From positions 932,591 through 996,590 of the forward strand of contig NC_091177.1 in the NCBI RefSeq assembly GCF_040958095.1: 64,000 nt of DNA, written 5' to 3'. The first letter of the stretch is position 1. Every line of letters begins with the position of its first letter. The notes beneath the pieces were generated by a model that was not told where the DNA came from, did no database searches, and worked only from the letters and a program-made list of their open reading frames with translations. Both the position numbers and the translations under genes were made by a program. Positions 36,746 to 62,171 of this stretch are shown here, piece after piece. Source of the stretch: Procambarus clarkii. Taxonomy: Eukaryota; Arthropoda; Malacostraca; Decapoda; Cambaridae.

Positions 36746-36849
36746 GGTCGGCGGAAAAACTTGAATTTCTTTTGAAATCTCACCAGAGATTTTCAAATCC
36801 ATTTAGTGAATGGATTTTAAGAATGTCAAAATTGAGGAAATCTTTGCTG

Positions 36850-37226
36850 TTAGGCTAGGTTAGGTTAGGTTAGGTTAGGTTAGGCTAGGTTAGGTTAGGT
36901 TAGGTTAGGTTAGGTTAGGTTAGGCTAGGCTAGGTTAGGTTAGGCTAGGTTAGGTTAGGTTAGGTTAGGTTAGGTTAGGTTAGGCTAGGTTAGGCTAGGC
37001 TAGGTTAGGCTAGGCTAGGTTAGGTTAGGTTAGGTTAGGTTAGGTTAGGCTAGGTTAGGCTAGGCTAGGTTAGGTTAGGTTAGGCTAGGTTAGGCTAGGC
37101 TAGGCTAGGTTAGGCTAGGCTAGGTTAGGTTAGGCTAGGCTAGGTTAGGTTAGGCTAGGCTAGGTTAGGTTAGGTTAGGTTAGGTTAGGCTAGGTTAGGT
37201 TAGGTTAGGTTAGGTTAGGTTAGGCT
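36850..37226 (+). repeat. Interstitial telomere-type array (TTAGG)n with CTAGG variants
   Basis: About 75 pentamers of TTAGG, with TTAGGCTAGG interspersed. TTAGG is the arthropod telomere repeat. The array is flanked by SINEs about 105 bp to the left and 37 bp to the right. Confidence 0.95.
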
Positions 37227-37964: not shown

Positions 37965-39145
<1,181 letters not shown>

Positions 39146-39257
39146 TTACTTGGGCGGAGTATGAGTATTTATGACTCGTATGTTCACTTCAGTAAGATTA
39201 TGCCCCCATGTGTTTAACAACTTCTTCTGCTCTGTTGAATCTGAATTGACATCTTAT

Positions 39258-40283
39258 TGGGGTTGTAACTGTGCACTGTGTTAGATAATGTTCCGGTGGT
39301 CTGTTGTGGTTGTAACTGTGCACTGTGTTAGATAATGTTCCGGTGGTCTGTTGTGGTTGTAACTCTGCACTGTGTTAGATAATGTTCCGGTGGTCTGTTG
39401 TGGTTGTAACTGTGCACTGTGTTAGATAATGTTCCGGTGGTCTGTTGTGGTTGTAACTGTGCACTGTGTTAGATAATGTTCCGGTGGTCTGTTGTGGTTG
39501 TAACTCTGCACTGTGTTAGATAATGTTCCGGTGGTCTGTTGTGGTTGTAACTCTGCACTGTGTTAGATAATGTTCCGGTGGTCTGTTGTGGTTGTAACTC
39601 TGCACTGTGTTAGATAATGTTCCGGTGGTCTGTTGTGGTTGTAACTCTGCACTGTGTTAGATAATGTTCCGGTGGTCTGTTGTGGTTGTAACTGTGCACT
39701 GTGTTAGATAATGTTCCGGTGGTCTGTTGTGGTTGTAACTGTGCACTGTGTTAGATAATGTTCCGGTGGTCTGTTGTGGTTGTAACTGTGCACTGTGTTA
39801 GATAATGTTCCGGTGGTCTGTTGTGGTTGTAACTCTGCACTGTGTTAGATAATGTTCCGGTGGTCTGTTGTGGTTGTAACTGTGCACTGTGTTAGATAAT
39901 GTTCCGGTGGTCTGTTGTGGTTGTAACTCTGCACTGTGTTAGATAATGTTCCGGTGGTCTGTTGTGGTTGTAACTGTGCACTGTGTTAGATATTGTTCCG
40001 GTGGTCTGTTGTGGTTGTAACTCTGCACTGTGTTAGATAATGTTCCGGTGGTCTGTTGTGGTTGTAACTCTGCACTGTGTTAGATAATGTTCCGGTGGTC
40101 TGTTGTGGTTGTAACTGTGCACTGTGTTAGATAATGTTCCGGTGGTCTGTTGTGGTTGTAACTGTGCACTGTGTTAGATAATGTTCCGGTGGTCTGTTGT
40201 GGTTGTAACTGTGCACTGTGTTAGATAATGTTCCGGTGGTCTGTTGTGGTTGTAACTGTGCACTGTGTTAGATAATGTTTCAG
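39258..40283. repeat. 47-bp satellite, ~22 copies, derived from LINE ORF2
   Basis: The unit contains GTTAGATAATGTTCCGGTGG and TTGTGGTTGTAACTGTGCAC with a G/C variant. On the minus strand the unit includes ACATTATCTAACACAGTGC, which in the adjoining LINE codes HYLTQC of the terminal zinc motif. The unit junction uses CAGACCAC, present twice 47 bases apart at the LINE edge. Confidence 0.93.
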
Positions 40284-40694
40284 TGGTCTGTCGGGCATTT
40301 CTCCACAGTGCTGACATTTCCTCTCATCTTCCGGAACCTGTAAGCCTATTTCCCATGCACATGGGTATCCAAGCCTGATGCGATGTAAGTGTACTTCTGT
40401 TGTTCTACTGCTCCCTTTCATCAAACTAAGTGGTTCGTAGCTGGTTGAATTCTTGTACCAACCCGCAGATCCTGATGTTGCAACTGCTGTGTTGTGGTCA
40501 CTGTACATCTTTTGCATTGCTGTTTCTAATTACTTTCTTAATCTGTGATAGACTCTGTGGTATGTAAATGTCTACATTTCTTCTTTTAGTTGCAAATTTT
40601 GCAGCTTCGTCTGCAATGTCATTTCCTATTATTCCCACATGACTTGGCATAAGGCATGACTTGGCATTTTGTGTTGAATGCCTTGTGTTGTGTT

Positions 40695-41035
40695 GAAAAT
40701 AGTTTAATTCTGGATGCCCCAGTAGTCTTACGTTGAGTGACCCAGTAGTTTTGTGTTGAGTGACCCAGTAGTTTTGTGTTGAGTGACCCAGTAGTTTTGT
40801 GTTGAGTGACCCAGTAGTTTTGTGTTGAGTGACCCAGTAGTTTTGTGTTGAGTGACCCAGTAGTTTTGTGTTGAGTGACCCAGTAGTTTTGTGTTGAGTG
40901 ATACAGTAGTTTTGTGTTGAGTGATACAGTAGTTTTGTGTTGAGTGATACAGTAGTTTTGTGTTGAGTGATACAGTAGTTTTGTGTTGAGTGATACAGTA
41001 GTTTTGTGTTGAGTGACCCAGTAGTTTTGTGTTAG
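40695..41035. repeat. Minisatellite, 23-bp unit, ~14 copies
   Basis: Unit GTTTTGTGTTGAGTGACCCA plus GTA; a run of five units has ATACA in place of ACCCA. It lies within the LINE relic. Confidence 0.95.
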
Positions 41036-44000: not shown

Positions 44001-45584
44001 ATGCTGGGTACTGAGATGGAGACTCAGTCACCAGTAGAACTGGCTGCTTCCCACGGAGATATTAACATGGACTCTGAAAGCAGCCAGTCAGACGAGGAGG
44101 GCGTGTTTCAAGAAGTTCTGACAAGGAATAAGAAGAAACGCAGAAGACAGGATGCAAGGCGTAGTGTGGACAGTAATGGTACACTTAACGGAAACGATAA
44201 AAGAATGAAGAACGACGCCGAGACTGATGCAGACACACGGACGGAACGATGTCAGGAAGGTGAGGATCAGCGGAGATGGAGGCTTCTCTTCCCTGCCTCA
44301 TGCACGTTGGCCTATCATCAGAAGCTGCTGTGGACCGTCAAACTCGGAAGAGAACACCGCAAGTTCGAGCCCCTGCTGAAGGAAGGTGTAAACAGACCTT
44401 ACTTAACGGTAGGTTCTAGGGAGGCAGTGACGTTTCTTAGCCAGCAAGGATATGATGGAATTCTTATGGAAATACCGGAGGGGAACGAGAAGCTGACGAA
44501 GGTAATTATCTATAAATACCCTCAGATTCTGGACCCCGAGTTTATACTCGACGACCAACGATTTGTGTGGGCCAAGCGTCACCTTATTAAAGGTGAAGCT
44601 AGGAGTCAGGTGGTGGCTCTAGTGAGAGGTGACGTACCCGAAAAAGTGTTCATCACCGGGGCTGGCTACAGGCATGTAGCAAAGTATGTGGAAGAGCCCA
44701 TAATATGCCTGAAATGCTGCAGATGGGGGCATAAATCCTGGAGCTGTCAAAATGATCCACGATGTCGTTTCTGCGGAAAGTCTCACCTCTCTACTGTGTG
44801 TAGAAACAGACTGAATCTGGGTGAGAAAATAGTTCCCAGATGCTGCAACTGTGGAGGTGTTCACAATGCGAGCTCGGCTGTGTGTAGCAAGAGGCCGAGT
44901 ATGGCTGTTCTCCGGCCGGTGAATGTTACAGAGCAAGCAAGAGCTCTTACCCAGACACCGGGAGCACAGCAAAACAGTCTGCCCCAAACAGTGCCAGTGA
45001 ACCGGACGAATGCGTGGGTAAAGGAGTCACCTTTACTTAGGCAGGCTCCAGCAACAAGCAGCCACGCCACCACTCAGGACTCCGGCAGTGACAGTGTAAC
45101 GGTGAGTGAAGTGGCTACTGTGGCTCAGAGAGAGGGTCATAATAATATGGTCAAGGAAGTGTGGGCTGAACTTAAAAAAGTTGGTGAGTTCCTCCAAAAT
45201 CTGGGGCAGAGAATCGAGTCCATCGAGGCTAAATTAAACGTTCAGGAGGTCAAGGAAAATCACAAAACGGTGAAGGATAGTCAGGATATAGTGGTTGAGG
45301 ACAAAAATGAAATATTGAGTGATGAAATGAAGGAAAGTGAAGTGTGTGTGAATGATGGTAGTCGTAGTGAAAGGAAGAACCCTATAATTACACATAAAAT
45401 GAAGGAATCATTTGGGCCAACAATGGACATCTCAGGGCTGAAAAAATCTCTTGAGAATCGCAATGTCGCTTTTACTGGTGAACTTGGGAGGAGGTGGGAG
45501 ATGTTATACAAGGTATGGCTATCATTTAGTGAACTTATTGGGGATGACTTAGGCAATGAATTGATTAATAATGGATCACCCTAG
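44001..45584 (+). CDS. LINE ORF1, nucleic-acid-binding gag-like protein (527 aa)
   Basis: ORF1 proteins of I-type LINEs coat the element RNA and act as chaperones in the ribonucleoprotein. Here an acidic and lysine-rich N-terminus (KKKRRR at about residues 44-49, a possible nuclear signal) is followed by a folded region. Three zinc knuckles lie at about residues 236-295: CLKCCRWGHKSWSC (CX2CX4HX4C), CRFCGKSHLSTVC (CX2CX3HX4C) and CCNCGGVHNASSAVC (CX2CX3HX6C), the usual trio of this group. A Ser/Thr/Gln-rich linker follows, then a likely coiled coil around residues 375-400 (EVWAELKKVGEFLQNLGQRI). Start: the first ATG of the frame, 66 bases into the element. The stop codon lies 14 bases inside ORF2. 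Confidence 0.9.
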   Translation: MLGTEMETQSPVELAASHGDINMDSESSQSDEEGVFQEVLTRNKKKRRRQDARRSVDSNGTLNGNDKRMKNDAETDADTRTERCQEGEDQRRWRLLFPASCTLAYHQKLLWTVKLGREHRKFEPLLKEGVNRPYLTVGSREAVTFLSQQGYDGILMEIPEGNEKLTKVIIYKYPQILDPEFILDDQRFVWAKRHLIKGEARSQVVALVRGDVPEKVFITGAGYRHVAKYVEEPIICLKCCRWGHKSWSCQNDPRCRFCGKSHLSTVCRNRLNLGEKIVPRCCNCGGVHNASSAVCSKRPSMAVLRPVNVTEQARALTQTPGAQQNSLPQTVPVNRTNAWVKESPLLRQAPATSSHATTQDSGSDSVTVSEVATVAQREGHNNMVKEVWAELKKVGEFLQNLGQRIESIEAKLNVQEVKENHKTVKDSQDIVVEDKNEILSDEMKESEVCVNDGSRSERKNPIITHKMKESFGPTMDISGLKKSLENRNVAFTGELGRRWEMLYKVWLSFSELIGDDLGNELINNGSP

Positions 45585-48500
45585 ACTGAAAGTGTTGTCA
45601 TGGAATGTTAATGGTTTGAGAAACAGGGTTACAGATGTTCATTGTTATGTGATGGGAAATGATATTGATGTTGTAGCTCTCCAGGAGACAGGGGATAGGA
45701 ATGAAGGATTATTGAAATTAAATGGTTATAAAGGGTTTCACCTCTTCGCTGCAAATAACATCAGAGGCACGTCGATTTATGTTAAGAACTCCATACCAGC
45801 AGAGTTAGTAGAACCGCCATCAAAAACGCAAGGTATAGAGAGTGTCTGTGTTAAATTATCATTAAGGGAAGGGGAATTTATTGTAGTTAATTTGTATGTA
45901 TCCAGGAACTGCTTCGACGCTAACTATTTACCTGACTGCATTTATACTAATCCTTCACTGGTCATTGGGGACCTTAATGCTCGGCACACAAGCCTTGGGA
46001 CAGTGGGTAGTATTAATGCTAATGGGGTCAAGTGGTTACAGTTTCTACAAGATCATCCAGATACCTGTCTCTTGGGAAACAATGAACCAACTCACATCAG
46101 GGGAGGACGGCTTGACTATGCCTGCGTTTTAAACTCTCAGGGGATTATGGGGGAGGCTCGGGTTGTTCGGGAACTACTTAGTGACCACTTTGCCTTGAAC
46201 GTTGAATTACCACTGGGGAAAAAACAAGTCCACTTTCAAAGGAAAAGGCTAAATATTAAGAAAGATATGAAAAATTATTTTATTCAAAATATGGGAGATT
46301 GGTATCAACATTACACGCCGCTCTGCGTTGATAGTTTTTACGAGGACATGGTCGAGAACATAGAGAAATTAGTACAGAGGGAAAATAACGGGGGCAGGGG
46401 AAGCAAGACGCACGGACCTAAGAAATTTAAATATTCCAATGATCAGCAAGTCAAGGGATGGGAGAGAATGCTACGGGGTGCGCATAAAGCATGGTTAAAA
46501 AATGGAATGAGGGATGAAGAGAAAAATACAATGTTGGAAGTGGCTAGGGAATGCAGTCAGGTGAGGAAGGAGGCGCGGGACAGATACTGGCAAGACTTTG
46601 CTCAGGCCATTGGTAATACTAAGAACCTTAAAGACATATGGAGAGCAGTAAATAAAGTCAGGGGTTGTAAGACCAAATTCATTGCTCACTCAGATCCAGG
46701 GAAAGTTGCTAATGAGTTAGTAGATAAATGGGCAAGTGCTGCTGGTATGGAGTCCTTACCTGCAGACACGAGAGTCACCATTGAGTCATGGGAAAATATT
46801 AGAAATGGAGTAACTTTATGTGCCTTAAATACAAGATCTATAGCATGCACTGAGATAACCCACGATGAGCTACTGGATGCTATAAAAAGTGGCAGCTCCA
46901 CTGCTCCGGGAAAAGATGGAGTAACGTATGACATACTTAATTATTTAGCCGGTATGAAACCTAATCCCTTACTTGATTTGTTTAATATGAGTTATAGAGA
47001 GGGAAAGTTACCAAGAAAATGGAAAGAGGCTGTCATCATTCCTATCCCTAAGTCAAACGGAGGCTACAGACCTGTCTCCTTAATATCCTGCTTTTGTAAA
47101 ATGATGGAAAGGATTTTGTTAAATAGGCTACTCTACCTTGTAGGTGATAACATGTCCAATAATCTCTTTGGTTTTATCAAAGGCAAAAGTACTGCGGATT
47201 GTCTCTTAAAGTGTTTGTCTAATGTGGATGACAATTGTAGAGTTTTTGTTGATCTACAAGGAGCGTTTGATAAAGCCAATGGGGAAGTAATCTTATACGA
47301 ATTAGCCAATCTGGGAATAACAGGGAGATTGCTACACTGGATAAGGGATTACCTGCAAGGCAGAAAAGGTCAGGTGTATTACCAGGGATACATGTCTGAG
47401 GAACGGAGGTTTCAGTTAGGTACCCCACAAGGGGGAGTATTAAGTCCCACCTTATTCAATGTATTAATGAACAGATTAGCATCAGAGATGTATCCTCCAG
47501 GGGTCACGACGATCATATATGCTGATGACATTCTTATACAAGGCACTTCTGGGAACAAAATTCAAGATGCTCTTAACATACTTGGTACAACCTGTCACAA
47601 GTTAGGCTTAGTTATAAATGCAGATAAAACCAAATACGAGTATAGGAAACGAAGAAATATAACACTTACTCTAAATGGTGTGGAACTGAGCCGTGTACAG
47701 AAGTACAAGTATCTGGGCATGTATGTTGGATACACATGTGAGAGTAAAAATGCTGAAATAAATCATATCAGCACCTTATGTAAAGCCCGTCTGCATCCTC
47801 TAAAAGCACTGGCTTTTTCTGGTAAAGGTGTTGGGGTACCTATCTTGCGGATGTTATACATAAGCACTGTTCGCTCCCTGATAGACTACGCAGCACCCGT
47901 ATTGTCTTACACAGGCCAAGGCAGAATTCAAAAAATAGAGCTGATACAGAACGAGGCTATGAGGATTATTCTTGGATGTCAAAGAAATGCAATGATTGAA
48001 ATAATGAGAATGGAATTAAATTTACAGAGTGTGTGTGATAGAGTCCGTGACATTAACACTAGAGTATCTATTCGTTTCATGCGGAGAAAAGGAGGGGATA
48101 AGCTGTTTGAGAGCGTTCAGACCTGCTTGAGTGACGTACACACTTCCAGGAAACTGAGGGAGACACGCTATACGAGAGGATTAGCTCATGACCTCAGGGA
48201 ATACGACGTACTTGACTGCTGTAAACCCTCTCGAAAGTGTAATATGTCTGCTCCCTGGAAAGTACAGAAAATAGACGTCGAAATTGTACCCCTCAAGGTG
48301 AAAAAGATTCATCATGAACCGGGACAATTACGGTGTTTGTATGGAAGCATGATATCTCGGTTACCAAGAGGCAACAGTTTACATGTATATTGCGACGGGT
48401 CGGTGGCGGAGGATGGCAGGGCAGGGTGTGGTGTCCTAATAAGGGATTATACGGAGTTTGGGACTGTGGACAGGATAATTGAACTCCGGCTTAGTAATTA

Positions 48501-49230
48501 TATATCATCCACACAAGCTGAACTGCAGGCCATTCTGGCGTGTTTGGAGGAAGTACGTCATGACGACAAAAATGTTTTTGTATTTGTCGATAGCCGAGGA
48601 GCACTGGAGTCCTTAAACAGTCGAAACCCAGTCTTCATGTCTATAGTGGAGGACTGTAAGAGAAGAATAACTGAGATACAGCTGAAAGGTTATAGTGTGA
48701 AATTCATGTGGATTCCATCTCACGTTGGAATAGTGCTCAACGAGGTGGCGGATGACTTGGCCAAACGTGCCACATCAAAACCACAAGTTGACATTGAATG
48801 TGAATTCACAATGAGACAAATAAGAAGCAAAATCAGAAATATTCAGGCACAGGCGGGAGTGGAGAGGAGAGAGATAATGTATGAGAGTAGTCAAACCATG
48901 CAACACTACATGTATGTGAGTCAAAACACCCATTTCACTTATGGTAAAAGGAGAAATGCTTGGAGTGACTCTGTGTACATGCGGCTCAGGCTTGGGTACA
49001 AATATTACTGGGAATATGGGATAGATGTTCATGGTAATGACACGAAGTGTAAACTATGTGGTATGTTAAGGTCTCACACCCTTGCCCATTATATTCTTGA
49101 TTGTCCGTTGATTAGTGTATATAGAAACACTGAGATAAGGACTGTTCCTGAACAAATAGCCTGGATGTGTCACAACGGACAGGTTGATGATATTCTTGAG
49201 AGATATAAGAATTTTGCACCAAGATTGTAA
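45571..49230 (+). CDS. LINE ORF2: APE endonuclease, reverse transcriptase, RNase H (1219 aa)
   Basis: This protein nicks target DNA and reverse-transcribes the element RNA at the nick. Endonuclease at about 8-212: SWNVNG (11-15), QE39, GDLNARH (D134, N136), SDHF (D205, H206). RT at about 478-745: VFVDLQGAFD (D561), TPQGGVLSP (618 on), YADD (650-653). RNase H at about 938-1070: YCDGS (D942), QAELQAI (E984), VDSRGA (D1007), PSHVGI (H1051), ADDLAK (D1061), so all acidic residues are present. C-terminal zinc motif CKLCGMLRSHTLAHYILDC (1160-1178). ATG at 45571 overlaps the end of ORF1 in the +1 frame, suggesting stop-start reinitiation or frameshifting. No internal stop or frameshift is seen; it may be functional. 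Confidence 0.93.
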   Translation: MDHPRLKVLSWNVNGLRNRVTDVHCYVMGNDIDVVALQETGDRNEGLLKLNGYKGFHLFAANNIRGTSIYVKNSIPAELVEPPSKTQGIESVCVKLSLREGEFIVVNLYVSRNCFDANYLPDCIYTNPSLVIGDLNARHTSLGTVGSINANGVKWLQFLQDHPDTCLLGNNEPTHIRGGRLDYACVLNSQGIMGEARVVRELLSDHFALNVELPLGKKQVHFQRKRLNIKKDMKNYFIQNMGDWYQHYTPLCVDSFYEDMVENIEKLVQRENNGGRGSKTHGPKKFKYSNDQQVKGWERMLRGAHKAWLKNGMRDEEKNTMLEVARECSQVRKEARDRYWQDFAQAIGNTKNLKDIWRAVNKVRGCKTKFIAHSDPGKVANELVDKWASAAGMESLPADTRVTIESWENIRNGVTLCALNTRSIACTEITHDELLDAIKSGSSTAPGKDGVTYDILNYLAGMKPNPLLDLFNMSYREGKLPRKWKEAVIIPIPKSNGGYRPVSLISCFCKMMERILLNRLLYLVGDNMSNNLFGFIKGKSTADCLLKCLSNVDDNCRVFVDLQGAFDKANGEVILYELANLGITGRLLHWIRDYLQGRKGQVYYQGYMSEERRFQLGTPQGGVLSPTLFNVLMNRLASEMYPPGVTTIIYADDILIQGTSGNKIQDALNILGTTCHKLGLVINADKTKYEYRKRRNITLTLNGVELSRVQKYKYLGMYVGYTCESKNAEINHISTLCKARLHPLKALAFSGKGVGVPILRMLYISTVRSLIDYAAPVLSYTGQGRIQKIELIQNEAMRIILGCQRNAMIEIMRMELNLQSVCDRVRDINTRVSIRFMRRKGGDKLFESVQTCLSDVHTSRKLRETRYTRGLAHDLREYDVLDCCKPSRKCNMSAPWKVQKIDVEIVPLKVKKIHHEPGQLRCLYGSMISRLPRGNSLHVYCDGSVAEDGRAGCGVLIRDYTEFGTVDRIIELRLSNYISSTQAELQAILACLEEVRHDDKNVFVFVDSRGALESLNSRNPVFMSIVEDCKRRITEIQLKGYSVKFMWIPSHVGIVLNEVADDLAKRATSKPQVDIECEFTMRQIRSKIRNIQAQAGVERREIMYESSQTMQHYMYVSQNTHFTYGKRRNAWSDSVYMRLRLGYKYYWEYGIDVHGNDTKCKLCGMLRSHTLAHYILDCPLISVYRNTEIRTVPEQIAWMCHNGQVDDILERYKNFAPRL

Positions 49231-56493: not shown

Positions 56494-58421
56494 ATGATAA
56501 CCCCTGTTTCGGCTGCTTCTGGCTTACCTTTTCAGGCTCGTGGGGTGGGCGACCAAGCCCCCGAGTCGGTCCGTATTGGAAGACCGGGCTCTGTAGCCTC
56601 CGCTGCATTGGGCCCCGACCTTGCTCCTCCTTTGGCCTCTCTGACTCCTTCCCCTGGCTCCCCTCCCTCCTCTGTGGTTGGGTCGAGCCCCAAGCCCCCA
56701 GTGGTGACTACCTCGTCCCCTGGCGCGGCTCCTTCTCTAGTTGTAACTACTGCGCCTTTTAACCCCTCTCTCTCTGGGGGTTCTCACCGCCGTCCTCGTC
56801 ACGGCCGCCCTCGCTCGATTCCTTCCAGTTCTGCTACCTATCAAGCCTTGTTTGGTCCGCTTCGTGGACCAAATATTTTGATCTCCTCCCTCTTGATTCT
56901 GCGCCTCCTGACGATTTCTCCCTTCATCGACATCTCATTGATTCCGTGGATGCCTCCATTACTTTCAACCCCACTCGTCTCGGTACACGTGTCGTTGCTG
57001 CTCCTTCTCAGGATGCTGCTTCCCGCTTGGCTGCCTTATCCTGCCTTGGCGAGACCCCCGTTCGGGTCTCGAAGAACGCTCAATTGAATGCCAGTGTTGG
57101 CACTATTTTGCTCCCGCCCCATGTTGCAACCGGTGTTCGGGACCTGCGCGACTGCCACGACGATATTCGCCATATCCTCGCTGCCCAGGGCCATTCTATT
57201 CTCCAGGTGGACACGTTTACTCGTCCCCCTCGTGGTAGTCGCCGTCAACCCCTCCGGGTTGTGAAGATTACCTTTGATGGTAGGACCCTTCCACCCTCTG
57301 TCATTCTTGCTGGTGCCAGGTGCTCTGTCCAGGAGTACATTCCTTCTCCTCGGCTCTGCAACAAGTGCTGGAGGTTTGGGCATGGTGCCCTCCGCTGCTC
57401 CGGGACTGTCTCTCTCTGTCCTTTGTGTGGTGGCGAAGGTCACTCTAAGTCGGAGTGCACTTCTCCCCAGGCTCGTTGCCTCAACTGCGGTGAGGCCCAT
57501 CCTACCTTCTCCCGTGCGTGTGTCCATTACAAGCTTGAGGCGGCCGTCCTCAACCTGAAGCACCGGGAGCGTTTATCTTTTCCTGAGGCGAGGCGCCAGG
57601 TTCGCCGGCTCCCGCCTTATGCTAATATCTCTTATGCTCGCGTGTTGCGCTCTTCCTCTCCTCGTCCTTCCCGCCTTCCTCAGACTCACAACCGTTTCCG
57701 GGCCTTGGACCCTGATGCGCCCACTGCCCCCTCCTCTGTTCCTTTGGGTTCTCTCCCGAAGGATCCTCCTCCTGGTCCTCTGTCTGGGGTTCCCCTTCCT
57801 TCTACCCGGTCTGTCGTGTCTTCTGTGTCTTCTTCCTCGTCCCCCTCCGATCCTCCTTCCCATCCTCTTCCTCCGTCTATTGGCTCTCCCCACCGCCTGT
57901 CGGTGCGGGCGGATGTCCATCGCTCTCCTAACGGCCGTCGTGTGTGCTCTCGTTCGGCTTCTCCTGTTGAGACACTGGAATCCGTTGCCCGGTACGTAGT
58001 TGCTGGGACACCGGTCTCTTTAAGTCAGAAGCGTAAGCCTGGCTCCTCTCCTTCCTCTTCCCCGGCGGGTAAGAAGGCTTCGCTTTCTTCCTCAGCTCCT
58101 CCTTCTGGCTCTGTTGCTCCTTCCCCTCCCGTTTCAGTGCTTGCGCCCCCTGTTCCTGCTATGGAGGTTTCTTTGGCCCCTGCTTCCCTTTCGGTTGCTG
58201 CTCTTGCTGGGGTGCGCTCCCCTCTTTCTACTCCCCCTCCTCCTGCTGCTGTCCTTGACGGCTCCTCTCCGTTGTCTCCTCCTCTTCCTCCTCCTCCTCC
58301 AGACCCTGCCCGCCCACCTCTGCTCTGTTCTCCCGTTTCCTTCCCTCCGTCTTTGCTCAGTTTACCCATGCCCCCTAACCCTGACTTTGCTGACCCTGAT
58401 CCCGACCCTGATATTCTTTAA
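56494..58421 (+). pseudogene. LINE ORF1, gag-like, one frameshift (about 640 codons)
   Basis: ATG at 56494 opens a Pro/Ser/Ala-rich N-terminus to SATYQALFGP near 56855. A one-base loss at about 56855-56865 moves the continuation (WTKYFDLLPLDSAPPDDF, DASITFNPTRLGTRVV) into another frame, which is open to 58421. Three zinc knuckles at 57357-57522: CNKCWRFGHGALRC and CPLCGGEGHSKSEC (both CX2CX4HX4C) and CLNCGEAHPTFSRAC (CX2CX3HX6C). The C-terminal 250 residues are a Pro/Ser-rich low-complexity tail. Role: RNA-binding partner of ORF2. Whether the shift is real or an assembly error cannot be told here. Confidence 0.8.
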
Positions 58422-58449
58422 CGTGCTCTGTTGGTCTTTCGCCTTTGTT

Positions 58450-61400
58450 TCTTCCTTGTTCTCTGTTTTTGTTCTTTCTCTTCTCGTCGTTGTCCATTCT
58501 TCAATGGAACGTTCGAGGTTATTACGCCAATTTCCTCGAACTCCAACTTCTGATTTCGTGGTTTTCGCCCCTTTGTGTCTGTCTCCAGGAGCCAATGCTT
58601 GGTGCTCGTCCTGGTCGTTTTCGTGGCTATTCCTTTCTCTCCCCCCCCCCCAGCCATTGCTGGGGCTTCTAATTCTTCTGCTCTTTTGATTCGGGCTGAT
58701 GTTCCCTTTGTTCCTTTACTTTTTCCTTCGCCTCTCCATTGTTCTGCTGCTCGTATCTTTGTGGGGAAATGGTACACAGTTTGTTCCATTTATCTCCCCC
58801 CGAGTGTCCCGCTCTCTCTTCCTGATTTGAAACACCTCCTGGACTCCTTGCCGGAGCCTGTGCTCCTGCTGGGTGACTTCAATTGTCGTCATTCTCTTTG
58901 GGGTGACGTTCTGACGAATACCCGGGGTCGCCTCCTTGAGCCGTTTCTCCTCTCTTCTTCCCTGTCTCTTCTGAATTCTGGTGAGCCCACTCATTTGGAC
59001 TCTCGGACTCGCACCCTTTCTTGTCTTGATCTTTCTCTCTGCTCTTCTTCTCTTTACTTAGATTTCACGTGGCAGGTTCTTGATGACCTCCATGGAAGTG
59101 ATCATTTCCCCATCCTTGTTTCCTTTTTCTCTTTTCGCCCTTCCCTCTCTTTCCCTAGGTGGCAGTTTGCTAAGGCAGACTGGACCCTATTTACCCTCAG
59201 TGCTGCTCTCCCTGACCTCTCCCTTCTGCCTCTCTCTCGCGCTCTCCTCCTTTTTCATGACACTGTCTTCAACGCTGCCCTCCGCTCTATTCCTCGCTCT
59301 TCCTCTCGGGGTCCACGGAAGTGCGTTCCCTGGTGGAATGCGGACTGTGCTCGGGCTGTCCGCTGTAAGCGTGCAGCCTGGAAGAGGCACCGCCGTAGGC
59401 AGACGACTGATTCTTTTCTTTTCTTTCGGAAAGCGAGTGCGGTGGCCCGTAGGGCCATCCGTACGGCTAAACGTGAATGTTGGGCATCTTATGTCTCAAC
59501 AATTACGTCCGAGACCCCTCTGGCCCAGATCTGGAAGCGTATCCGCAAGATAGCGGGTAAGTTCGTTCCCGATGTTTCACCGGTCCTTCACCTCCATGAT
59601 ACTCTTGTGGCGGACCCGTTGCAGGTCGCTTCCGAACTGGGTTCCCATTTTTCTTCTGTTAGCTCTGGTCTTCATCTTCCCCAATCTTTCCTTCTTCGTA
59701 AACCTGTCCTTGAGTCTCGTCCTTTAGATTTCTGCACTCATCTTCAGCTTCCCTATAATGATCCCTTCTCTCTCTCTGAACTTCGTTCTGCCCTGGCCCT
59801 CTGCGGTTCTACGGCGGCGGGCTCCGATGGTATTCATTATGAGATGCTTCGCCATCTCCCTCCGAGCACGTCTCAGTATTTACTGAGTCTGTATAATCGG
59901 ATCTGGGAGTCGTCGTCAGTCCCTGAGGACTGGCTCGATGCCGTTGTCCTCCCTGTTCGCAAACCGGGGTCTCTGGGTACTTCCCCTAAGGACTTTCGCC
60001 CTATTGCTCTCACAAGTTGTGTCTGCAAACTCTTTGAACGTATGGTTAACGTTCGTCTGATGTGGTTCCTGGAACACCATCACCTCCTCTCCCCTTCTCA
60101 ATTTGGTTTCCGCAAGTGCCGCAGCACGACAGATGTCCTGGTGAACTTGGAGGTCTATATTCGTACTGCTTTTGCTGCGAAGACCTCCGTTGTTGCCGTC
60201 CTTTTTGACCTAGAAAAGGCTTACGACACCACTTGGCGTTATCATATCCTATCTCAACTTCATTCTTTTGGCCTTCGTGGTCATCTCCCTCTCTTTCTCC
60301 GCAGCTTCCTCTCTCGTCGTTCCTTTCGGGTGCGCCTTGGTACCGCTCTCTCTCCCTCTTTTCAGCAATATGAAGGTGTGCCCCAGGGTAGTGTTCTGAG
60401 CACTACTCTTTTTCTTGTTGCCCTCAATGGTCTTCTTTCCTCTCTTCCTTCTGGTGTCTTCTCCGCTCTCTATGTTGATGATCTTACCCTTTGTTGTCAG
60501 GGTGATGATTCGCCTCTCCTTCAACGCCGGCTTCAACTTGCAATTGCTGCCGTGTCGTCTTGGGCCACAGGTCATGGCTTCAAGTTCTCTACTTCTAAGA
60601 CTTGTGCCATGACTTTTACGCGGAAACGGGTTGTTCTTCGTCCCTCTTTGTCACTTTATGGTCATCCCCTTGAGTACAAAGATTCCGCGAAGCTTTTGGG
60701 GTTATTCCTTGACACTCGTTTGTCTTGGTCTCCCCATATCTCTTACCTCCGTGTTGAGTGCTCTAAGGCCCTTACCCTCCTTCGGGTCTTGTCCCATACT
60801 TCTTGGGGGGCAGATAGGCGCACTCTCCTTGCTTTACATTCCTCTCTCGTCCTGTCTAAGCTCGATTATGGTTGCCCTGCTTACTCGTCTGCTTCTCCTT
60901 CTACTCTTCGCCGTCTTGATGTTTTGCACCATACTGGGTTGCGCCTCAGTTCTGGTGCCTTTCGTTCGACTCCCATCCTTAGCTTGTATGTTGACACTGG
61001 CTTCCTGTCTCTCCAGGACCGCCGTGATCGCTACTGTCTTCGCTATCTTGCGCGGTCCTTGCAACATCCTTCCTCTCGCCTCTGTCGTGCTTTAACTTTT
61101 ACCCCTCCTGCGGTTCCTGTTCCTCTTCACCACCTCCCTCTTTCTGTCCGGTTATCTCGCCTACAGGATTCCCTCTCCGTTCGTATTTCTGATGTTTCTC
61201 CTCGTGTTGTTCCTTCTTTGCCCCCGTGGAGGGTCCCTCTTCCGCGGTTTTGTACTTCCTTGACCCGTATCACTAAAGCTTTTACCCCTCCTACGGTTCT
61301 AAAACGCCTTTTCCTCGAGCACTTTTCTTCTCACTCCCGCTCCGTTTCTGTCTTCACCGATGGGTCTAAGTCAGCGGACGGTGTTGGCTACTCTGTTGTT

Positions 61401-62171
61401 TTTCCTGATCACACTTATATGTGTCGCTTGCCTCCGGAGACTAGCATCTTTACAGCAGAACTTTATGCTATTCTCTATGCTCTTCGTCTCCTGCTTTCTC
61501 GTTGTCAGTCTTCCTTTGTGGTTGTTGTTGACTCTCGTAGTGCCCTCATGGCTCTCGGGTCCTTTAATCCGGTTCATCCAGTAGTTGTCGAGATCCAGCA
61601 TTGGCTGTTTCTCGTTCACAGTAAATTTAAGTCGGTTGAGTTTTGTTGGGTTCCCAGCCATATTGGTGTGTCTTTAAATGAGCGTGCGGATGCTGCCGCT
61701 AAGGAAGCTGTCCGCTCTTGTCCCATCTCTCGTAAAGGCATTCCGTATTCCGACTTTTACCCAGTTATCCATTCCTCAGTTCTTACCCGTTGGCAGGCTT
61801 CTTGGTTGTCTGTTACTGGTAACAAGCTACGTACTCTTAAATGTTGTGTTTCCTCGTGGCCGTCCTCCTTCCACTGTAACCGGCGGTGGGAAACAGCTCT
61901 GGCGAGGTTGCGTATTGGCCATACTCGCTTAACCCATGGTCACTTGATGGAGCGCCGCCCTGCTCCTTATTGTCCTAGTTGCATTGTCCCTCTTACGGTC
62001 GTGCATGTCCTTCTTGAATGTCCTGACTTCCAGGACGAGCGTGTGTCTTGCTTTCCGACCGCCCCTCGCGGTCACCTGTCCCTCGATAGAATTCTTGGTG
62101 ACTCTGATACTTTTGATATCGTTCGCCTTATGCGTTTTTGTTCTCGTATTGGCATCCTTGGTGATATTTAG
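58450..62171 (+). pseudogene. LINE ORF2: APE endonuclease, RT, RNase H; frameshift at C11
   Basis: The endonuclease start (SILQWNVRGYYANF, CLQEPMLGARPG) lies in the frame 58445-58672. After eleven C at 58641-58651 the rest is in the frame open from 58575 to 62171. Positions counted from 58575: GDFN (D101, N103), SDHF (D176, H177), RT with LFDLEKAYD (D545), EGVPQGSVLS, and YVDD (633-636). RNase H has FTDGS (D929), TAELYAI (E962), VDSRSA (D986), PSHIGVSLNERADAAA (D1039). The C-terminal zinc motif is CPSCIVPLTVVHVLLEC (1133-1149). One extra C is enough to explain the break, so the copy is either very young and dead or mis-sequenced in the homopolymer. Confidence 0.85.

Follow-up and report, generated by a model that had tools for sequence, protein, structure and literature searches.

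The window, by which we mean the whole stretch of 64,000 nucleotides of Procambarus clarkii DNA analysed here, contains on its minus strand the 3' part of a LINE in which the end of ORF2 holds a tandem array with a 47-bp period. Listed in the direction of the LINE, the features of the locus are:

40718-41033, no strand assigned: a separate 23-bp tandem array, adjacent to the LINE fragment on its 5' side, that belongs to the host locus, not to the LINE
40501-40649, minus strand: 5'-truncated LINE ORF2, C-terminal part of RNase H (PSHVGIIGNDIADEAAK...), from tblastn to the ORF2 of window LINE-A and from homology to genome copies
40260-40397, minus strand: C-terminal region of the LINE ORF2 with the CCHC-type motif CQHCGEMPDRPLKHYLTQC, the second half of which is unit 1 of the array
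39257-40290, minus strand: 22-unit tandem array of the 47-bp unit, consensus CAGACCACCGGAACATTATCTAACACAGTGCACAGTTACAACCACAA
39085-39256, minus strand: 3' end of the LINE, with the remaining ORF2 tail (the codon of the last residue ends at 39201) and the 3'UTR
39004-39032, no strand assigned: a single diverged 23-bp unit beyond the 3' end of the LINE

TRF reports the array at 39257-40291, with period 47, 22.0 copies, 98% matches and a score of 1979, and the word CAGACCAC is found 22 times, spaced by exactly 47 bp throughout. The initial annotation, which had described about 22 copies of a 47-bp unit in the coding end of a LINE, is thus confirmed, although its interval, 39146-40330, takes in LINE flank on both sides of the array proper, 39257-40290. 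Unit 1 begins at 40290 on the minus strand and codes for RPLKHYLTQC, which includes the HYLTQC codons that had been attributed to the unit. Since these residues form the second half of the CCHC-type motif (placed by hand at about 40316-40260), the array begins within the zinc motif: it had been described as lying between the zinc motif and the C-terminal end, but the motif straddles the start of the array. Downstream of unit 22 the C-terminal frame of the LINE picks up again (39305-39201, ...PIRCQFRFNRAEEVVKHMGA*), with a stop just past 39201.

The 22 units comprise 5 distinct sequences, with a mean pairwise identity of 0.981. Compared with the array consensus, unit 1 has C9T and G11A, unit 7 has T16A, unit 22 has A44C, and nine units have C33G.

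Only the 3' part of the LINE is present in the window, from 40649, a position within RNase H where homology to other genome copies sets in, to a 3' terminus at about 39085. In most other copies the 3' end is ...GGAATATCCCTG(C), with CTG or CTGC before an A-rich tail, and the window copy has no such tail. The diverged 23-mer beyond this end has a local score of 33, against 29 for the best of 1000 mononucleotide shuffles and 22 for the next best match elsewhere in the window; from these sequences, the LINE probably inserted in or beside a 23-mer site.

Judged by its domains, the carrier is a non-LTR retrotransposon (LINE) with predicted reverse transcriptase, RNase H and a C-terminal CCHC-type motif; the label "I-type" is that of the initial annotation. 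In genome copy L063, a single-unit reading frame of 648 amino acids matches the Pfam families RVT_1 (2e-19), RNase_H (6.6e-14, after the reverse transcriptase) and RVT_3; the truncated window copy is without the reverse transcriptase domain. Copies of the LINE have variable 5' starts, and A-rich tails before unlike flanks. As candidate target-site duplications, direct repeats of 7-16 bp with a shuffle fraction of at most 0.05 are found at 10 of 36 loci, where about 2 are expected by chance; two of the 10 loci go back to a single insertion that was duplicated, and at another the repeat is of low complexity. Most of the 36 loci show no convincing repeat, and in several rows the 5' flank, of only 5-10 bases, is too short to be informative.

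The surroundings are rich in repeats. Sixteen minisatellite-type arrays with units of 8-54 bp, chosen by eye from the TRF output, make up 11.6% of the window: the 47-mer is one of many, set apart by its traceable source. The usual arthropod telomere repeat, (TTAGG)n, occurs at an internal site, 36849-37224, as about 75 copies of GTTAG. Two other LINEs, at 44001-49230 and 56946-62171, have open ORF2s of 1219 and 1198 amino acids, in which Pfam finds endonuclease, reverse transcriptase and RNase H; long ORFs lie upstream of these, and both LINEs are possibly intact.

Single-unit and multi-unit copies

Other copies were sought in the window's own genome, 4.03 Gb in 2,308 contigs. The exact pattern of one unit with both its LINE edges has 938 matches, and the reversed control has none. 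Using the LINE upstream of the array as query, with 40 of 1,352 candidates scored, 30 loci were cut, one of which is the window; the remaining 29 have one unit in 25 cases, two in 3 cases, and 32 in one case (34 after extension). The LINE 3' end as query, with 40 of 1,365 candidates scored, yields 29 loci outside the window: 20 with one unit, four with two, one with three, one with seven and three with none. In these last three (L024, L027 and L028), the LINE begins after the position of the unit. Alignment of the unit to genomic LINE copies, which the initial annotation had proposed as a check, thus gives exactly one unit in most of them. As a side observation, six single-unit LINE ends lie about 5-10 kb apart on one strand at G000:C2:12018504-12048133, perhaps a tandem cluster of longer segments.

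Multi-unit copies are also widespread. Two exact patterns that join the left edge of the LINE to a tandem junction have 90 + 100 = 190 matches, and one that joins a junction to the right edge has 287, with all controls at 0; both counts are lower bounds, being exact matches, and the patterns differ in length, so that the ratio of 190 to 938 is rough. A sample on contigs C1-C3, made of every cluster listed there for the commonest junction form (21 loci, L022 among them), has 2-13 units per locus, with a median of 3, units being counted as BLAST hits of the 47-bp unit. Longer arrays, which it had been suggested to look for, do occur: L003 has 22 units, L004 has 24, L007 and L008 have 26 each, L005 has 42, and extension of loci gives arrays of 34, 57, 86 and 208 units. 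The last, at C89:4605128-4614909, is the longest seen, with 9.8 kb and LINE on both sides. Another array, of about 3 kb at G000:C5:23810421-23813442, has exact junctions spaced by 94, 141 and 188 bp, which hints at a higher-order pattern.

The arrays stay with the LINE. In all 39 multi-unit loci examined, which include three duplicated pairs (L007/L008, L076/L078 and L086/L088), LINE sequence adjoins the array on at least one side, and in 38 of the 39 it does so on the 3' side; the sole exception is L079, whose array runs into non-LINE sequence at its 3' side. Part of these loci were found with queries containing LINE sequence, the C1-C3 sample by the junction alone, in its commonest form only. 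LINE is also present upstream of the array in 15 of the 21 C1-C3 loci, and the remainder begin at or inside unit 1. The initial annotation had named two outcomes that would have pointed to insertion of the array from elsewhere: LINE copies lacking the 47-bp sequence, or arrays standing without LINE flanks. Since the unit is present in LINE copies and the arrays are embedded in LINEs, neither outcome was found, and the unit stands as LINE coding sequence.

To call the 47-mer a satellite is generous. Its arrays are head-to-tail and homogenized, as those of a satellite; however, long arrays with a substantial share of the genome are not seen, the roughly 4,010 exact junctions amounting to at least some 0.19 Mb in a genome of 4.03 Gb and the C1-C3 median being 3 units, and none of the 39 loci has an array independent of the LINE. 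Most array-bearing copies have short arrays and a few have long ones, which is the pattern of expanding repeats of the Ogre type, discussed below.

Reading frame, polarity and junction

Because 47 is of the form 3n+2, and not a multiple of 3, a second unit shifts the reading frame. With one unit, the ORF ends in the tail CTVTNPLRFQLRFNRAEEVV...PPK*, 42 residues from the last Cys; by a strict word test, this FNRA tail is kept in 37 of 45 single-unit rows and is broken or slightly changed in the rest. Among 37 multi-unit rows, of which some are pieces of one array, 32 have instead the tail CTVTATTDHWNII* (...TTDHWNII*) or one that differs from it by at most two residues; of the other five, L077 stops earlier, and L021, L080, L085 and L090 differ. 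The usual effect of a second unit is thus an ORF that stops 12 residues after the last Cys of the zinc motif: the motif stays intact, the stop falls within unit 2, and any third or later unit is predicted to be untranslated. The spread of multi-unit copies suggests that the altered ORF2 tail is tolerated; alternatively, these copies would be mobilized in trans.

Which of the two states came first can be approached through the length of the tail. The same 42 residues separate the last Cys from the stop in three related LINE sequences of the window, although two of these are decayed: one is read across a stop, and the other has Arg where the Cys would be. Shuffled sequences have a stop at 41-43 codons in 1.3% of cases, and 7.0% of them stay open for at least 41 codons. 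The similarity of the tails themselves to those of the related LINEs is weak in ungapped comparison (z of 1.94, with 639 of 20,000 shuffles as high) and not significant with gaps. The length of the tail favours the single-unit state as original.

There is always the possibility that the family was ancestrally multi-unit and that single-unit copies are collapsed arrays, since collapse by unequal exchange would yield exactly the single-unit edges that are observed. Divergence of the LINE flanks offers it some comfort. Measured from the single-unit majority, the median is 1.8% over 29 single-unit copies and 2.4% over 13 multi-unit ones, and the window copy is itself at 2.4%. Of all 42, L005 is the most diverged, at 17.1%, and it is multi-unit, with 42 units. 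In a midpoint-rooted tree, L084, with 3 units, stands beside L005, and losses fit as well as gains. However, the single-unit form is the one whose stretch from Cys to stop matches the three related LINEs, and single-unit copies are the commoner (938 exact matches against 190-287): we regard this reversal of the order as improbable. The divergence of L005 does imply that tandem units may be older than most of the single-unit copies now present, and that the tandem state is probably not new. The initial annotation saw a satellite caught in the act of arising; it is better to say that arrays may have arisen repeatedly, and over some time.

The junctions between units tell more about the place of origin. 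At the 19 measured loci, every unit except the last closes with a form of NCCACAA, its final ACAA invariant, before CAGACC. The pattern GTTACAN7CAGACCAC, in which this heptamer is left open, has 4,010 matches, against 165 for its control; it mostly misses arrays whose units have GTTACC or GTTACT (such as L004, L005 and L007). The junction (A/G)CCACAA accounts for 2,849 of the 4,010, and its control has no match; other junctions among the matches listed, counted by eye, are one- or two-step variants, save three that are unrelated. A simple duplication of the standard single-unit sequence would have left AACCCAT or AACCCGA before CAGACC (CAGACCAC), and these junctions have no exact match in the genome. 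The common derived junction, (A/G)CCACAA before CAGACC, thus points to one founding event.

Assuming a single founding event, one may ask whether the multi-unit copies form one group. In a tree built from the LINE flanks of 42 rows, 13 of them multi-unit, the change of state requires 8 steps, against a mean of 11.2 when states are shuffled, and 10 of 500 shuffles are as low; the multi-unit copies are not united, in a tree where 2 of 39 inner branches are firm and which speaks neither for nor against a single origin.

The initial annotation had derived the array by simple slippage or unequal exchange from CAGACCAC occurring 47 bases apart at the edge of the LINE. These two occurrences are merely unit 1 followed by unit 2. 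The word occurs at most once in the unexpanded copies printed, and is thus an unlikely template for slippage.

Two other candidates were tried for the founding step and rejected. The trinucleotide CCC, found 47 bp apart in single-unit copies, would as a slippage template yield the junction AACCCGA, of which there is no exact match; RCCACAA as the right edge of a founder LINE variant, next to TAAGATT, has 1 match in the genome.

Could the array nevertheless have been built in place, by direct-repeat slippage, after insertion of a LINE with one unit at the window locus? The edges of units 1 and 22 still resemble those of the LINE, and the T9C variant of the array is private to it, being the consensus at none of the other loci among the 19 measured multi-unit ones. 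But its junction is the derived one found in arrays genome-wide, the junctions of a fresh duplication have no exact match, and CAGACCAC is single in the unexpanded copies printed, so that a birth at this locus is quite unlikely. The claim of a satellite born from a LINE gene thus keeps its source and loses its birthplace: given hundreds of dispersed copies with a common junction, the array arose from this LINE, but probably not at the window locus.

Dispersal and probable local growth of the arrays

The multi-unit copies bear marks of retrotransposition. The two-unit copies L014, L020-L022, L043 and L046 have unlike flanks after the A-rich tail, and unlike 5' truncations or flanks. In three copies, L021, L089 and L091, the element starts inside unit 1 and goes on into further units, which is what reverse transcription of a multi-unit RNA would produce. 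Of 20 multi-unit rows, direct repeats with a shuffle fraction of at most 0.05 are found in L007, L008 and L011, the last being of low complexity, so that they are convincing for a single multi-unit insertion, that of L007/L008. L007 and L008 are one insertion that was duplicated: they are 99.6% identical, with 26 units each, between direct repeats of 12 bp.

Duplicated loci also inform on what happens after insertion. L076 and L078 are about 97% identical, and share flanks and a truncated first unit, yet one has 7 units and the other 4: the length of the array changed after the locus was duplicated. In L007/L008 and in L086/L088, unit counts are unchanged. Within arrays of at least 6 measured units, mean pairwise identity is 0.93-0.996, and variants are specific to the array, such as T9C in the window, A40T in L005 and in L007/L008, and A40C in L004; odd units tend to be the first and the last. 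This pattern suggests unequal exchange or slippage.

From these observations, we propose the following history. A non-LTR retrotransposon would have carried one 47-bp segment at the end of ORF2, and in one source element this segment would have become a tandem pair, with the new junction. The second unit would shift the frame, exchanging one tail for the other while leaving the zinc motif intact, and, with the stop falling inside unit 2, extra units would escape translation. Elements with at least two units would then have been retrotransposed to hundreds of places, and at each site unequal exchange or slippage would lengthen, shorten and homogenize the array independently, up to the 208 units seen. 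The window copy would be a mid-length example, with 22 units, in a dead, 5'-truncated LINE. We are fairly confident in the outline of this history, from a duplication in one source LINE, through its spread by retrotransposition, to arrays that grow and shrink at each site. A stronger form, to which we give an even chance, is that one frameshifting duplication of 47 bp turned a LINE subfamily into a mobile seeder of satellites, each insertion bringing a seed of at least two units that grows independently.

Copy numbers of repeats are often wrong in assemblies, and part of the graded series could reflect repeats mis-collapsed or over-expanded; this is very unlikely, as unit variants are locus-specific, many arrays are short (2-13 units), and the 26-unit array is kept unit for unit at two places that are 99.6% alike. 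That a satellite already in existence was inserted into, or captured by, the LINE has next to no probability: arrays are common neighbours, at least 16 of them covering 11.6% of the window, but the unit belongs to the coding sequence of the LINE, where 938 exact copies have it once, and none of the 39 multi-unit loci lacks LINE on both sides.

Relation to known systems

Repeats borne by retrotransposons or related to LINE ORF2 are of a kind already known, and the value of the 47-mer lies in its graded series. In Lathyrus sativus, tandem repeats in the 3'UTR of Ogre, a Ty3/gypsy LTR retrotransposon, gave rise to satellites according to PMC7004042. The likeness, as far as that account goes, is that short arrays lie in a dispersed retrotransposon, that a minority is expanded, and that the stages coexist in one genome. 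The carrier here is instead a LINE with A-rich tail, reverse transcriptase and RNase H; its unit comes from the zinc-motif end of ORF2, and comes to lie after the stop only through its own frameshift. For the same comparison, the longest 47-mer array seen has 9.8 kb.

Closer in source are satellites related to LINE ORF2: PROsat in Phodopus and Pvc 20 in Phoca, both related to L1, and chicken HinfI, related to CR1 (PMC9659126; PROsat and HinfI also in PMC6947457). As described there, these are established satellites with partial similarity to LINEs, whereas the 47-mer has single-unit, two-unit and long states within recognizable LINEs. In Drosophila virilis, the foldback element Tetris supplied building blocks for an emerging satellite (PMC4079207), a likeness to the present case, except that Tetris is presented as a DNA transposon and not a LINE. 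Crayfish satellitomes are described as rich in minisatellites of less than 100 bp (PMC13130569), and in this the window resembles them; the main text of that report contains neither "47 bp" nor "47-bp". We noticed no report of the 47-mer in the literature searched, which is not proof of absence.

The beginnings of satellites are usually deduced from finished arrays. Here a single genome has every stage from the single copy and the two-unit state through short arrays to one of about 10 kb, in LINEs whose flank divergence can be measured, and over hundreds of replicate loci array length could be compared with insertion age, local recombination and position on the chromosome. The effect on the frame also offers a possible reason why an array within a coding region need not halt the spread of the element. 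If the LINE is indeed a mobile seeder, one genome would hold hundreds of parallel births of satellites, in 3' sequence where the array is neutral for coding.

The 47-mer is not the only internal tandem repeat of this LINE. A second one, with a unit of 31 bp and a variable number of units, lies near the 3' end of other copies (L023, L033, L035, L036, L043, L048, L050, L069, L075, L076, L078, L082, L092, L093 and L094), and is absent from the window copy.
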